A stretch of 64,000 bases of DNA from the NCBI GenBank assembly GCA_008690995.1, contig VRMN01000003.1, positions 2,046,001-2,110,000 of the forward strand, given 5' to 3'. The position numbers and the translations under genes are program-made. Positions 5,273-54,892 of the stretch are shown one piece after another. The notes under the pieces are model-generated. The model did no database searches. It was not told where the DNA came from and saw only the letters and a list, made by a program, of their open reading frames with translations. The number at the start of each line of letters is the position of its first letter. Position 1 is the first letter of the stretch. Origin of the DNA: Porphyridium purpureum. Lineage: Eukaryota > Rhodophyta > Bangiophyceae > Porphyridiales > Porphyridiaceae.

Positions 5273-7654
5273 CTACTTTGTGAGCATGGCGCGGAAGTCA
5301 GCCTGCGACAGAGAAGGCTTGCTACCGCTTGTTTCGGTGCGAGCTTCGGTGGTTGTGGTGGCGCCAGGTTCGGCAGGCATTCCATTCTGGGCGTCGATTG
5401 TCAATCGCATCGCCGGCTGCTGCGCAGGAGCCGGCGCAGACCCATACATAGCACTGAAACCACGATGCAGCCGCGGCGCCTGCAACGCTGATGCTGATCC
5501 CACGGCTGTCGAAGCAGCCTTTGGCGGCTTGGACCTGAGCACAGATATTTTTCGACCGTGAAGCTCAGAACCATGTGCCGCCAAAGCAGCCTGTACGCCT
5601 TGCTCCGAGGTAAACTCAATATAGGCAAACGCACGGCTACCATCCTTGGTGTGCTTGAGACGGATCTCCTTCAGGTCCGGCAGCCTTCCAAACACCGCTG
5701 CGAGCTCTTCTGCCGTGGTATGCTTGTCAAGTTGGCTTACATAGACGGTGCACTGGTCATTGTACCACGTCATGGCACTAGACTTGGTATCGTGACGAGC
5801 TTCCATCGCACCAAGCGCTTCGCTTCGCCCTGCGCTGCCGCTCGGTCGAGTCGTGCGTGCTTGAGAAGAATTCTGCTTCTCCACAGACTGCCCTGACGTC
5901 AGAGCATGCTCACCATTTAAATACTGAGAGGACATCGCACTGGCGTCAGCAAACGCCTCCTGCTGTTCAGAGTGAATGCGCTTGCGCTTTGCGGGGACTG
6001 CGGCCGCCGCGCGACCTAAAGAACGATGAATGCGATCCTTTTCCTGCTGGCGTACAAGTGCCACGCGCCTTTCGATGGCCGCGCTCGCTTGTTGAAGCCA
6101 GTTGCTACTATCTGCAAAGACGGCTTCAGTCTCCATCCACTCTTTTCCCAGTAAAAGAACGTCAGATTCAGTACTCAACACGGATATGCCGCGGCGAAAG
6201 AGCTTGCGCCACCCAAAGTCCTGATGCCTTTTGTGAATGTGTTCTTCCAGCCGCAAGCACGCCAGCCAAACGCTAACTTCCTTACCAAAACGCCCCGAGA
6301 TTGCCTTTTCCATGTATGTTCGTGCCATTGCTGTGTCGTCCGCGACCAGCACGAGCATACGACACGCGAGAAGCAGCAAGGACACGTTATCGAGCGTCAA
6401 CGATGAAAAGAGGCGCGAGACAAACGCCGTGAATTGTGCATGGTCGTCTGCTCCAGGGACCAAGGATCTCCGAGCAAATTCCAGCAAGGTGCGACGCGCC
6501 TTGTCCCAAATCGAGTGGGCTATTGCGGGTGCCAAGACTTGCCCCTGTTCTGTGAGTGCGATGCAGCGGTCTAAGAATTGCTCCGCTTCTGCGAAAGGCA
6601 TGCCATTGGTCTCGAGCGCATCGATGTACGCGGCGGCTATATCGCCAGACATGGGCAAGTTTCGAAGTGCGCGCGATAAAACGCCGAGCTGCCGCTGCTT
6701 GTCCTGGAGCACGGAATTCATCACGTGCGCGTACCGCAACCATGGGTATTCGCTGTCAAAATGCAACGAGACCATCCGCTCTAAGAGTACAATGGCCCGA
6801 TTTGGATCGGCCTGGATTTCCAGAGCAAGATAGTTCTCCCACGCGCTCTGCACGCTTTCATTGTACGCCCCACCACTGGCTGAGACTGCCGCATTCACAA
6901 GCGCCTCGCAATGCTCACGCTGCGCTACCATGCTTCGCACACTCTCAACAGTCGCAGCGAGCTGTTCCAACAAGTCTGGAAACTTCACTCGCGTTTCGTC
7001 TACCCAGTCTTCGTAGTTAGCGAGCGGCACGCGCAGAATTCTCTGCCATACTGCGCGCTCTTGTCGCAATTCATCGTCAGCTGCGGCTTCAACAGCCAGC
7101 CGGCAGGTCCACATTCTGGCACCCTGTGTGAAATGCGTGGCACATTTCGCCATAAGCTCCGAGTCCATTCTGCCGCGCATCTGGGCCATGGTTTCCAATC
7201 GCAGCTCGTAGCGCGTCGCGAGAATCTGCATACCCAACAGTGCCAAATCCACCGACACATAGTCTCGCAGACCGGTATGTACCAGCTTTAGCACTGCCTC
7301 TGTAGCTGCATCCAAGCGCTCCTTGTCGTAGTCTATAGGCGAGTCGTCCTCTTGCTCGCTATCTTGCGGCATGACCGCCTGGACGTCCTCGAGCTCATCC
7401 TCAACCCACGCGATCCAGAGCTCAGGCGCTAGTGGCAGGCGCTCGTGCATGTCTGTGCGCGCGGCAAGCAGCGCTCGCTTCATGCAGGCCCAGCCAACGT
7501 CACTGGCTTGTGACTGTGCACTGTCTTCAGCATAGTGACACGTGGTGCAAAAGCGCCTTTCTGCGTTCCGCAGCGCAGTGACGTATAGTTCGTGGGCCGA
7601 ATAGTTTAGCGGCTGCTCCGCAACCACACGGCGCAGCTCCTCGATCTGCTCCAT
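5273..7654 (-). CDS. SART3: SART3/Prp24-like U6 snRNP recycling factor
   Basis: Assists re-annealing of U4 and U6 snRNAs in spliceosome recycling in the nucleus. Seen: a long helical HAT-repeat region (about residues 1-560; repeated W..Y..E patterns such as AWENYLALE and LWIAWVEDEL), a basic nuclear-localisation-like KRKR near residue 565, a single RRM at about 634-710 (RNP2 CTVYVSQL, RNP1 RAFAYIEF), and the C-terminal end LSQADFRAMLTK. The end matches the LSm-binding tail that closes SART3 and Prp24 (S-x-x-D-F-x-x-h-h). Human SART3 has two RRMs and yeast Prp24 four; here only one is visible. Tail-to-tail with the PMT gene, 53 bases apart. Reduced spliceosomes are known in cyanidiophyte algae. 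Confidence 0.87.
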   Translation of the reverse strand: MEQIEELRRVVAEQPLNYSAHELYVTALRNAERRFCTTCHYAEDSAQSQASDVGWACMKRALLAARTDMHERLPLAPELWIAWVEDELEDVQAVMPQDSEQEDDSPIDYDKERLDAATEAVLKLVHTGLRDYVSVDLALLGMQILATRYELRLETMAQMRGRMDSELMAKCATHFTQGARMWTCRLAVEAAADDELRQERAVWQRILRVPLANYEDWVDETRVKFPDLLEQLAATVESVRSMVAQREHCEALVNAAVSASGGAYNESVQSAWENYLALEIQADPNRAIVLLERMVSLHFDSEYPWLRYAHVMNSVLQDKQRQLGVLSRALRNLPMSGDIAAAYIDALETNGMPFAEAEQFLDRCIALTEQGQVLAPAIAHSIWDKARRTLLEFARRSLVPGADDHAQFTAFVSRLFSSLTLDNVSLLLLACRMLVLVADDTAMARTYMEKAISGRFGKEVSVWLACLRLEEHIHKRHQDFGWRKLFRRGISVLSTESDVLLLGKEWMETEAVFADSSNWLQQASAAIERRVALVRQQEKDRIHRSLGRAAAAVPAKRKRIHSEQQEAFADASAMSSQYLNGEHALTSGQSVEKQNSSQARTTRPSGSAGRSEALGAMEARHDTKSSAMTWYNDQCTVYVSQLDKHTTAEELAAVFGRLPDLKEIRLKHTKDGSRAFAYIEFTSEQGVQAALAAHGSELHGRKISVLRSKPPKAASTAVGSASALQAPRLHRGFSAMYGSAPAPAQQPAMRLTIDAQNGMPAEPGATTTTEARTETSGSKPSLSQADFRAMLTK

Positions 7655-45143: not shown

Positions 45144-45233
45144 ACCGAACTTCCCTACCGCGGGCGGCAGCTTCTACACACACATCCTCATCAAGCCAAA
45201 AATTCTTGCCATGGGAGGCAAAAAGTTTTGCCA

Positions 45234-45334
45234 CTCGAACCCACGACCACCAGATTAAAAGTCTGGCGCTCTGACCAACTGAGCTAGGCAGGCATGAGGA
45301 ATCCGATGTGCTCGGTTTCTTACCCACCGTGGGG
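45234..45334 (-). tRNA. circularly permuted tRNA-Lys(UUU), breakpoint 59/60 in the T loop
   Basis: Read on the minus strand, the 3' fragment comes first (45334-45321: C60, T-stem CCCAC, acceptor GGTGGGT, A73). A 27-base spacer follows (45320-45294, with a CCGA/TCGG hairpin), then the 5' fragment (45293-45234: acceptor GCCTGCC, D arm, anticodon loop CTTTTAA with UUU at 45259-45257, T-stem GTGGG, TTCGAG). Joined, the T arm is GTGGG-TTCGAGC-CCCAC; the acceptor has four Watson-Crick and three G-U pairs. The junction forms an exact bulge-helix-bulge: T-stem, bulge ATC, helix TTCG:CGAA, bulge AGT; cutting after the second base of each bulge gives the canonical loop. A T5 terminator lies at 45224-45220, just after the 5' fragment. 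Maturation should go through a circular intermediate, as known for C. merolae. Confidence 0.8.
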
Positions 45335-46077
45335 ATTTCGTAAAATTAGGGTGAGTAGAGGAAAACTTAAAATATATATATTTTGTATGTGGTTCAGGAG
45401 AACGTGGTTGGGAGGTACAGTGAACCCTGTGTTTTACGCCAAGGCATGAAAAACGGCTTGGTCCACGTGTGAAACGCACGCCAAGGGGAAGAGCGCGGCG
45501 AGTATGCCGGTGACGACAATGATAACGTTGTGCGCCTCGGCAGGCCTGCTTGTCGAAAAAATCCATCGCTGATCGGGTCCGTGTCTTTCTCTCCCAGAAT
45601 TTACCGTACACGTACAGAAAGATAAGCGTACAATTTTCATCGCACATCGCATGCGAATGTCATGAGAACCAGATGCGTCGACCAGTGCGCCGATGCCGTG
45701 TGCTATGTCACATGCCCATTGGCCTTATCCATATCCTCGGTCAGAGGCTCAAAGCTATGCTTGTCACGCTGTTCACCTTGCTTTCACACGCAATGAACGC
45801 GCGGTCCATGCTTGTCATAAACGAACCGTTTCCGTTCCATACAAGGTAGAAAAAATCAATGTGGGCACGTGCATCTGTTCTTTCATGCCATTCGTTTAGA
45901 TTCACGTGCAAGAAGTTGTGGATTATTGCTTGGTACTTCATCACGACAGAATCCACTCCAGACACTCAGCACTGAGCTTTGCAGCATTCAGCACGGGCGT
46001 TTCTCTAATGATATGTCTCATCTATACAGCCTTCTCGTTCACTCTTCCTGCGCATCGCCATTTCTATCCTGACGGCA
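45335..46077. other. intergenic region between tRNA-Lys and the FIST-ankyrin gene
   Basis: About 740 bases with only short frames lacking any domain. Contains an A/T run (TATATATATTTT near 45372). It should hold upstream promoter elements of the minus-strand tRNA near its left end and the 3' flank of the FIST-ankyrin gene at its right end. Nothing else seen. Confidence 0.5.
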
Positions 46078-51951: not shown

Positions 51952-53262
51952 CTATCGTCGCTTTCCGCTCTTGTCAATAAATGGCGCGGTATCCATCAGA
52001 ACGGACAGTCGCTTCAGATTCTGGCTCCGCATGTGATGCACATGCTTCAGCGACTGCTCTGCGTCCTTTTGCGAAATCGGCGACGCAAAGTAAGCTGGGA
52101 ATTCTGAAGCCATGAGAAACACATCTGACGTCGTTTCCCGGATCTTAAAACCAAATGCATCGCACCCGTCCTCATTGGCACTATCTGTATTTGTGAACCT
52201 TCCCAAAATTTGTCCAACCTCTTCTTGTGGTTCAAACACGACAAAGGTATCGCGATACCAGTCCGCTATCATGAAGAACAATGTCATATCCAGCGGTGCA
52301 TGGTAAGCCGTCAATCGAGACAGTAGAAAATTGACGCCTTGCCTGGACAAAATGTACGCGCTCGCCCGTGCGAACGGATTGGGCTCGATCTTCTGCAGGC
52401 CAACGCCTTGGCCCGACGAACCTGCAGCTGTGTCCCGAAGCCAAATAGCGTGCCAAGCAGTTTCACCTTTCGCGACTATTGTGCGCGTCTCCATGGTGTC
52501 TGCGGATCCCACGAGCGCGTCCGCCTTGGCCTTCGTAACGAACACGCCAGGTTCTAGCACCAACACTGCACCAGCACGGTCGTTGCGAAAAACATGCTCC
52601 CAGCTACGCAAATGCGCTTCGTACCGCGCGACGTCGGACGCGTAGACGCGACTGTCGCGTGGGTGGACATGAGTTATTGGAACGGGCGATTCCACTTTCA
52701 GGTCAATCTCGCGGTCGATGAAAACGGGAAGTATTTCCTCTTCTATCCATCCATATTGGGACACTAGCAGTTGCACACTTGCATCCACACGCTCCTTACA
52801 GAAGGGGTCACCCACTATCACGACCTGCGCGACGCGCTCCTGAGCTTGCTTGGGTTCCGTAAACAAGACGTGGTCTTTATCATCGACCACAGGCAAATAC
52901 CGGGGCAAGACCAGAGGAAACGCACCCAGTGGAAGAGACGATTCAGCGCGGCTTTCATTCTGCGTCCCTGTCAACTTGGCGTCGCCGTATGCGACAGAAT
53001 CCGGTATCCACGTTGGACTTCTTGAGGCATACTGCGGAACCGAGCTGAGAAACATCGGCAACACAAGCGACGACCTGCGGACCGAATAAAACAGGCTCGC
53101 AGGGATCAGCACCAAGAACACGAACAATGAGATCGCAAATGCAGGACGATGCACCCGCTGCTGCACCTCACTTCTCGCGCAGCTCTGCATCCGCTCAAGC
53201 CATGCGCGCCATCTCGGTGCTCCCGCGCGACCTGTGCGGGTTGCGAACACCGAATCCGCCAT
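51952..53262 (-). CDS. type II membrane protein with GT25-like glycosyltransferase domain, altered DxD
   Basis: 436 residues: a basic cytosolic start, a signal anchor at about 42-63 (FAISLFVFLVLIPASLFYSV), a stem, and a luminal domain from about 140. The domain shows the GT25/LPS-glycosyltransferase order: an N-terminal strand (VAQVVIVGDP), ARYEAHLRSWEHVFRND (SHxxxW-like helix), the position of the acidic metal motif reading VLVLEPGVFV near residue 237, and the C-terminal SAYILSRQGVNFLLSRL then DMTLFFMI. The EDD that GT25 enzymes carry is EPG here, so activity is doubtful. Golgi location is inferred from topology. Family assignment is moderate. An E2F-like TTTCCCGCC lies near 53291, upstream of its start. 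Confidence 0.6.
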   Translation of the reverse strand: MADSVFATRTGRAGAPRWRAWLERMQSCARSEVQQRVHRPAFAISLFVFLVLIPASLFYSVRRSSLVLPMFLSSVPQYASRSPTWIPDSVAYGDAKLTGTQNESRAESSLPLGAFPLVLPRYLPVVDDKDHVLFTEPKQAQERVAQVVIVGDPFCKERVDASVQLLVSQYGWIEEEILPVFIDREIDLKVESPVPITHVHPRDSRVYASDVARYEAHLRSWEHVFRNDRAGAVLVLEPGVFVTKAKADALVGSADTMETRTIVAKGETAWHAIWLRDTAAGSSGQGVGLQKIEPNPFARASAYILSRQGVNFLLSRLTAYHAPLDMTLFFMIADWYRDTFVVFEPQEEVGQILGRFTNTDSANEDGCDAFGFKIRETTSDVFLMASEFPAYFASPISQKDAEQSLKHVHHMRSQNLKRLSVLMDTAPFIDKSGKRR

Positions 53263-53413
53263 CCGCAGCCGTCTTCCTCACTGGCCCCCCCTTTCCCGCC
53301 ACTACTTTGAACCGAGCCAGAACTCTGAAAATGTTGCGTCTCCCCTGGACTTTCCACAAATACAATATTTATGATGTTTAAATTTTCTCCTCTCCCGCAG
53401 TCTGGAAATAGAG

Positions 53414-53538
53414 CCGGGAAGGTCCCGGGATCAAGCGTCAGCGACAGCTGGCTGAGAGCCCCGGCTGGGAAGGAAAGATTTTCTCCTCGGAGGAAAAGCT
53501 TTTCCCAGTGGTCTAGTGGTTAGGATGTCCCGCTTTCA
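53414..53538 (+). tRNA. permuted tRNA-Glu(UUC), breakpoint 37/38, with an extra T-loop intron 59/60
   Basis: The 3' fragment precedes the 5' fragment. 3' fragment: C38 at 53414, anticodon stem CGGGA, AGGTC, T-stem CCGGG, ATCAAG, an intron (53436-53458), then C60, CCCGG, acceptor CTGGGAA, G73 at 53472. After a 29-base spacer the 5' fragment runs 53502-53538: acceptor TTCCCAG, A box TGGTCTAGTGG, anticodon stem TCCCG, CTTTCA. All acceptor, anticodon and T-stem pairs are Watson-Crick, and the joined anticodon loop is CTTTCAC, canonical for Glu. Junction: bulge AGC, helix CTTT:ATAG (3 of 4 pairs), bulge CAA, inner stem TTCC:GGAA. The intron has its own bulge-helix-bulge (helix ATCA:TGAG, 3 of 4; bulges AGC and AGC; inner stem GTCAGC/GCTGGC). 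T8 terminator at 53555-53562. Base 54 is A, unusual. Confidence 0.85.
53436..53458 (+). other. 23-base intron in the T loop of tRNA-Glu
   Basis: Cutting AG^C at 53435/53436 and AG^C at 53458/53459, the second-base positions of two 3-base bulges, leaves a 7-base T loop ATCAAGC closed by CCGGG:CCCGG. The intron folds on itself through GTCAGC and GCTGGC with a GACA loop. It splits the internal B box, so transcription probably relies on other elements. Confidence 0.7.
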
Positions 53539-53562
53539 ATTCCTGAGACGGAAATTTTTTTT

Positions 53563-54892
53563 CTTGGACTTCGTTGTGGCTCTCCAATTTTTGCTTGACG
53601 CTGCGAAATTGTCCGACAATGCCTCGTCTGTCTCTGCCACCTTCTTCTCTCCCGACCTGCTACTCAAGTGTTTATTGAGTTGGGCGCCGCCAGAAACAGC
53701 GACCGGAGCTCTGATTCCGTACATGCCTTCGCAGCGGTAGTTTCCTTTTCAGATCATATCACGTGTATCATGACGACGTAAAATGCACACTCGCGCCCAA
53801 AAACGTTGACTCGCAAGCTGGGTTTCTCCGATGTCACAGTGGAGCGTTTCGAATACTTTACGGCACCGAGCAAATTGTCAAGGCACCCTGGCATGGAAAC
53901 GTGCTCGCTGCCTGCAAATCTGCAGCCATGCGACGCCGGCCTCCGCCGCACATGCTTAACATAGTCAATGGTTTCGGTATATCTATCCATAACTTGATGG
54001 AGAGGATCTACATCAGTGACCAGCCTTCTGCGCGTCGCGCTTTGACAGTAAGGTGAGCTGGTGCCCCCGGCCGGGTGCTGCATGCGTGCGCTTTCAGTGC
54101 AATGCATCAAAAAATCGTCCAGATCAAAATGGAATAGGAAACTGCCTTTTCCATGACGCTCTCTCAGAATGGCACAGTGCTTTTCTGTGAAGATGAGCTC
54201 AAGAGGCTGATACCGCTTCTTGTTCGTCCCGACGGCCACGCCGCCGTAGATGTGATAGCCACACGCGAGTGTCGCATGCGTCGCAACTCATGCCCTGTAC
54301 CACGGCTTACCTTCTTGCTGGATGAATTCAGCGCGGATCAAGTGCCACCTCAACCTCATGGCACACAGCCAAGTGCACAAAGGCGCGCGGATTGTAGACA
54401 CCGACTCATCCCATTCTAAGCCTAAGCTTAAGCCCCCAGGCTCGGGCCAAGGCCAAGGCCACGTAGAACATACAGGCATTGTGGAGCCACGCGTGTCCAA
54501 GCAAAAGACTCAGTTAGCCGGCCTTAGGCAGCAACGAAGCTTGTTATTGTGTGGCACACCGAGTAAACGGTCGATCATCGTGCAGCTCCTTAGACAAACA
54601 CCGCGCTGAGGTAACTTGGGGTACAAGACTTCGACGCAGGTTCTGTTGTGTTAGTGTACCTCCAGCAGCGCTCGTAGGAATCTCGCCGAAATCGGCCCGT
54701 TTCGCTAGTAGAGCGTTGGAGAGGAAAGCTGTACCTCCACCGATCACTGCACCTCAACAGGGTACAGCGAAAATCGAAACCGATAAACCGAGTTTGCGTG
54801 GCTTGTGCGCGAGCAGGTCAAGCACTCGCGGGAGCGAGACGTGCAAGCGCGCGAGGACACACAGAAGGGAGAGACGGAGAGGCAAAGGGGAG
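53563..54892. other. 1.3 kb region without a recognised gene
   Basis: Between tRNA-Glu and the chosen GCNA start. A 161-codon minus-strand frame (53754-54239) and overlapping short plus-strand frames show no domain. The GCNA frame stays open up to 54551 but has no coding look there. CCGATAAACC occurs at 54780-54789, identical to the site before BRL1. Confidence 0.4.

Follow-up and report, generated by a model that had tools for sequence, protein, structure and literature searches.

Anatomy of permuted tRNA genes

A tRNA-Glu(UUC) gene lies at positions 53414-53538 on the plus strand of the window (the whole 64-kb stretch analysed) from the mesophilic red alga Porphyridium purpureum, with its 3' half placed before its 5' half. 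The initial annotation had proposed this arrangement, and both the limits of the gene and the joins between its pieces were confirmed. Along the plus strand, the gene opens with tRNA positions 38-59 (53414-53435), followed by a predicted bulge-helix-bulge (BHB) intron of 23 nt (53436-53458) that interrupts the T loop of the 3' half at 59/60, again in agreement with the earlier reading. The 3' half continues with positions 60-73 (53459-53472), a 29-nt spacer separates the two acceptor strands (53473-53501), and the gene ends with the 5' half (positions 1-37, at 53502-53538), whose D arm is GTCTAGTGGTTAGGAT. This D arm is identical to that of human tRNA-Glu(CUC). The intron contains a stem of its own (GTCAGC at 53437-53442 with GCTGGC at 53447-53452), and its insertion site is the same as that of the inserts in the eMet and Arg(TCG) genes. 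One TTTT run is located within the spacer (53479-53482) and another (53500-53503) extends from it into the 5' half. With respect to frames of at least 250 aa the gene is intergenic, its neighbours ending at 53262 and resuming at 54551; a protein search with a neighbour's protein returned only the self-match.

When the halves are joined, the acceptor (7/7), anticodon (5/5) and T (5/5) stems are Watson-Crick at every pair, as had been noted, and the anticodon loop reads CTTTCAC with the anticodon TTC, while the D stem forms 4/4 pairs, two of them G-U. The standard bases T8, G18G19 and T33 are in place, and position 54 is A instead of the U expected under the elongator rule. The minimum-energy fold that ViennaRNA returned for the joined 73-mer was not the cloverleaf, and the stability of the 161-nt precursor was ordinary (z -1.12; 27 of 200 shuffles folded equally well or better).

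The A54 had been singled out as an added oddity, a view that does not hold within P. purpureum: the same base occupies this position in the elongator T loops of Ala(CGC) (L007), Ala(TGC) (L010) and Val(TAC) (L015) as well as of Glu(TTC). In Cyanidioschyzon merolae, according to a 2014 review, A54 is tied to the initiator tRNA (PMC3978253).

The window holds another permuted gene, not mentioned in the first reading, which encodes tRNA-Lys(UUU) on the minus strand (45234-45334) and has its junction at 59/60. Its 3' piece (positions 60-73) is at 45321-45334, its 27-nt spacer at 45294-45320 and its 5' piece (positions 1-59) at 45234-45293, all on the minus strand. As read from the sequence, the 3' piece fits the 5' piece through an acceptor stem of four Watson-Crick and three G-U pairs and a T stem of 5/5 pairs. 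Elsewhere in the genome, a permuted tRNA-Thr(UGU) gene (L016, 1443-1536) has its 3' half at 661279-661314 and its 5' half at 661337-661372 of contig C14, with a 37/38 junction and a spacer of 22 nt.

Bulge-helix-bulge junctions

Six junctions were tested: Glu 37/38, Glu 59/60, Lys 59/60, Thr 37/38, and the T-loop inserts of eMet (16 nt) and Arg(TCG) (10 nt). At Glu 37/38, the leader strand of the BHB (plus strand) comprises the h' element GGAA (53404-53407), the central-helix strand ATAG (53408-53411) and the bulge bases AG (53412-53413), the third bulge base being C38 itself (53414). The central helix pairs with 53533-53536 at three of four positions, and the trailer strand (53539-53543, plus strand) supplies the bulge A and the h' element TTCC. 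The central helix of the Glu 59/60 junction likewise has 3/4 pairs, so that the first reading and ours coincide at both, and each of the other four junctions (Lys, Thr, eMet and Arg(TCG)) has 4/4. Pooled over the six junctions, 22 of 24 central pairs are in register (G-U counted); when one strand is shifted by -6 to +3, only 7 to 15 of 24 remain. For random 4-mers the probability of at least 22/24 is about 7e-8, a figure that ignores the choice of boundary, those of the T loops having been placed at 59/60 by eye.

Support for the BHBs from the outer helices is weaker than that from the central ones. The GGAA of Glu 37/38 could pair with TTCC at 53540-53543, with a duplex p of 0.201 that is not significant alone; the h' stem of Glu 59/60, read from the sequence, has six pairs including one G-U (duplex p 0.066). 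Against shuffles, the Thr duplex alone was clearly better (p 0.000), those of Lys, eMet and Arg(TCG) ranging from p 0.168 to 0.715.

Promoter and terminator elements

A 30-column promoter matrix was trained on upstream regions of 110 bases from 15 other loci, namely 14 tRNA genes and one ARAGORN tRNA-Ser call since rejected; neither of the window's two permuted genes was among them. On both strands of the window, its best match (29.9) was the motif upstream of Lys(UUU) (45358-45387, minus strand) and its second best (21.0) a TATA-like, T-rich Pol III promoter motif upstream of the Glu gene (53361-53390, plus strand), each beginning exactly 53 nt upstream of the respective 3' piece. The third-ranked match scored 18.4, and in a 200-kb sample of contig C43 none of 398,840 positions reached 21.0 (maximum 19.4). 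The two top ranks thus indicate that the ordinary upstream motif of tRNA genes precedes both 3' pieces. Downstream, the Glu 5' half is followed by a run of eight T (53555-53562, plus strand), a likely Pol III terminator, and the Lys(UUU) 5' piece by a run of five. The motif of the permuted Thr gene occupies the expected place, 60 nt upstream, but is weak (11.6, below the 12.7 of the best minus-strand score at the same locus).

The tRNA-Ser call, from the C43 sample, had the lowest motif score of the 15 (8.9 bits) and a sequence that resembles coding DNA; lacking the tRNA upstream motif and being coding-like, it was not counted as a gene.

These elements bear directly on the possibility that the locus encodes a split tRNA, with the two halves made as separate transcripts and joined in trans. 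Either of the two TTTT runs, one inside the spacer and one at its edge, could end a transcript of the 3' half, as expected for a split gene; yet the sole strong promoter match nearby precedes the 3' half, the T8 run comes only after the 5' half, and the 29-nt separation falls within the range of 1-74 nt given for the spacers of known permuted genes (PMC3978253). We therefore consider a split tRNA quite improbable. In a permuted tRNA-Glu gene, the same TTTT runs could terminate some transcripts early.

Searches with permuted-order models

A permuted-order scanner was built from an A-box-like D arm, full acceptor, T and anticodon stems, and a T-loop motif with an optional insert. Its sole match in the window was the Glu locus, and it gave no match across 7,564 first-order Markov windows of equal length. 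Three covariance models, R1, R2 and R3, all of them models of class I tRNAs, were used as well. Of 29 tRNA sequences prepared, 21 were used in A1 and A2; the other eight, whose variable region has four bases, were misaligned by MAFFT and left out. Model R1 scored the Glu locus at 54.3 bits with the joined Glu sequence among its training data. Since the mature Glu and Thr sequences were part of both R1 and R2, the third model, R3, was made without them, from 19 sequences (15 human ones and four continuous P. purpureum genes) that included no permuted gene. It scored the Glu locus at 48.2 bits (E 4e-11 over 339,377 bases, the E-value being rough). The single match above it was the permuted Thr gene L016 (60.1 bits), and the best non-permuted match (26.3 bits) was the 3' part of the continuous Arg(ACG) gene. 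In the 200-kb sample of contig C43 (20 overlapping stretches), R1 and R2 yielded no match at E <=1 and R3 none at E <=0.1.

For the Lys(UUU) gene, model R2 (permuted at 59/60) gave 68.2 bits, as compared with at most 53.5 bits for continuous genes. Its training set included human Lys(UUU) and P. purpureum Lys(CTT), and most of its structure is common to linear tRNAs; the permuted reading of this gene accordingly rests on the margin over continuous genes together with the fitting 3' piece, the BHB and the promoter. Rfam reported a weak, short linear tRNA here (33 bits, 45229-45293, minus strand), and the body of the Lys(CTT) gene is 93% identical to the Lys(UUU) 5' piece. Genome searches with the joined Lys and Thr sequences returned their own loci and, in addition, the Lys(CTT) gene.

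In a genome DNA search of low sensitivity, the joined Glu sequence matched its own locus alone; as the same kind of search recovered none of eight human tRNAs, the genome may have a further Glu(UUC) gene that differs in sequence. A decayed or silent pseudogene that has retained the look of a permuted gene could account for the one mismatch in each Glu central helix. On the other hand, all 17 of the acceptor, anticodon and T-stem pairs have been kept as Watson-Crick pairs, the promoter motif and the T run are retained, and no further copy was matched, all of which makes decay very improbable. Chance resemblance within intergenic DNA, for which the shortness of the individual parts might speak, is hardly credible in view of the 0/7,564 null windows, the 48.2 bits obtained with the independent model R3 and the promoter ranking.

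tRNA genes across the P. purpureum genome

The genome searches covered the 22.16-Mb assembly (46 contigs), in which the window is contig C2, 2046001-2110000. The genome matches P. purpureum and not Cyanidioschyzon. The phycobilisome-linker domain is matched at ten places, and the frame at one of these aligns with PDB chain 6kgx_d9 (LR3) across the chain's full 342 residues at 729 bits; 6kgx is the phycobilisome of P. purpureum. Of 475 candidates, the Rfam tRNA search scored 63 and returned 17 places, 12 of them above the cut-off; it is no census, since it missed an Ile(AAT) gene. That gene (L027) came from the first eight human tRNAs used as DNA queries. A second set of eight human tRNAs recovered no gene, which shows the DNA search to be too insensitive for a census as well. 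The 19 places examined (17 from Rfam, Ile(AAT) and Glu) were reduced by L017 and L018, both below the Rfam cut-off.

Among the 17 readable genes thus obtained (no census), ten show an interruption or a permutation, which for one gene was read by eye. Seven are continuous: Lys(CTT), Phe(GAA), Arg(ACG), Gln(CTG), Ala(CGC), Leu(CAA) and Ile(AAT). Another seven are linear and interrupted, in the anticodon loop (Arg(TCT)), in the D loop (a gene with anticodon CCC, Ala(TGC) and Val(TAC)), in the T loop (eMet and Arg(TCG)) or, in the case of Gly(GCC) (L012, 1501-1613), as parsed, by two introns in the D and anticodon loops; the Val(TAC) interruption was placed by eye, the parser having given no convincing fold. 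The remaining three, Thr(TGT), Lys(TTT) and Glu(TTC), are permuted. The Glu gene thus belongs to a broader P. purpureum pattern that includes the second permuted gene in its own window.

An ARAGORN call of tRNA-SeC at 7497-7585 (plus strand) is located within a PRP39-like frame of the opposite strand, has no Rfam match and looks false.

In a published tRNAscan-SE survey of eight red algae including P. purpureum, the unicellular species were credited with 22-26 genes and G. sulphuraria with 82, and its main text nowhere uses the word "permuted" (PMC10496412). Our results suggest that such default-tool counts for unicellular red algae are incomplete.

Splicing enzymes and a proposed processing route

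Two frames encode a catalytic tRNA-endonuclease domain and match PDB chains named Sen2 (1.2e-13) and Sen34 (4.5e-20), respectively, and a match to a Sen54-type N-terminal domain was also obtained (2.0e-10). The search for Sen15, run without a eukaryotic positive control, gave no match in the genome. For C. merolae, Sen2, Sen34 and Sen54 are described, with Sen15 not apparent (section 8 of PMC3978253). With regard to ligation, two different RtcB matches (L049 and L050) are present in one nuclear genome, and a search for the ligase family PF09511, run without a positive control, gave no match.

Taken together, the P. purpureum locus is best explained as a nuclear tRNA-Glu(UUC) gene that is circularly permuted, has an intron in its T loop and probably works, a reading to which we assign a probability of roughly 0.92. 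The anatomy, the in-register BHBs, the promoter motif, the T run and the enzyme genes are all observed. As to the initial claim, the permutation of the tRNA-Glu(UUC) gene and its BHB intron at 59/60 are supported by the anatomy, the models and the promoter; the combination of the two has a precedent (see below).

From these elements and by analogy with C. merolae we infer how the gene would be transcribed and its product cut, circularized and charged. Pol III would initiate at the upstream TATA-like element and produce a single RNA consisting of the leader, the 3' half with its intron, the spacer, the 5' half and the trailer. The endonuclease formed by Sen2 and Sen34 (and possibly Sen54) would cleave both the T-loop BHB and the BHB that leader and trailer form at 37/38, presumably in this order, which is taken from the Gly(CCC) tRNA of C. 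merolae. A ligase, probably RtcB, would then join the exons and close the circle; RNase P and tRNase Z would possibly open it again at the acceptor stem, removing the spacer, and the addition of CCA would follow.

Comparison with known permuted tRNA genes

The 2014 review counts, in its available sections, 34 permuted genes, none of them for Glu, with C. merolae as the one red alga (PMC3978253). A 2025 report adds permuted tRNA genes in Auxenochlorella and, in the part available, cites C. merolae and the prasinophytes as earlier cases (PMC12636532). Our literature search (titles and the beginnings of abstracts, with few subscription papers) yielded no report of a permuted tRNA in Porphyridium among the matches listed; in the one paper matched for Porphyridium with permuted tRNA, the term occurs only in the title of a reference. 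What appears to be new, with priority not proven, is the red algal lineage, the Glu isotype and a Lys(UUU) permutation at 59/60 as in C. merolae.

The Lys(UUU) gene of P. purpureum shares its isotype, anticodon and 59/60 junction with the type IV tRNA-Lys(TTT) gene of C. merolae, the spacers being 27 and 38 nt, respectively, and the likeness being drawn from Table 1 of the review. The permuted Thr(TGT) gene, with its 37/38 junction, agrees in amino acid and junction with Thr(CGT) and Thr(AGT) of C. merolae, and the Glu gene has no counterpart in that table (PMC3978253). The same review states that the identities of permuted genes are not conserved between organisms and, in the sections available, leaves open whether such genes are old or have arisen repeatedly. 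A tentative hypothesis, to which we give rather less than even odds, is that scrambling of tRNA genes was already widespread in the ancestor that Cyanidiophytina share with the other red algae, that Lys 59/60 and Thr 37/38 were inherited from it rather than acquired convergently, and that standard gene finders undercount the tRNA genes of mesophilic unicellular red algae. With only three permuted genes at hand, the agreement of Lys and Thr with C. merolae is suggestive only. A second red algal lineage with permuted and ectopically interrupted genes, one of them sharing isotype and junction with C. merolae, would make the question of old versus repeated origin directly testable through orthologous genes, and suggests that a relaxed tRNA endonuclease may extend beyond the hot-spring algae.

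In Ostreococcus, Micromonas and chlorarachniophyte nucleomorphs, type II genes also place the 3' half before the 5' half, as the Glu gene does, and all but one of the genes listed for these organisms in Table 1 have the 37/38 junction (PMC3978253). These organisms belong, unlike P. purpureum, to the green lineage, and atypical introns are almost absent from B. natans and the green algae reviewed (PMC3978253). The initial annotation had called the combination of permutation and T-loop intron, with the B box split, extreme; a precedent exists in two tRNA-Gly(CCC) genes of C. merolae, which combine a 37/38 permutation with an intron of 13 nt at 55/56 (PMC3978253, Table 1). These type II genes resemble the Glu gene in the 37/38 junction, the terminal BHB and the T-loop BHB intron in the 3' half, and differ from it in the position and size of the intron (59/60 and 23 nt in P. 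purpureum), in the spacer (7 versus 29 nt), in the isotype (Gly) and in belonging to Cyanidiophyceae. Overall, this rare gene architecture appears to extend to a red alga outside the hot-spring group.
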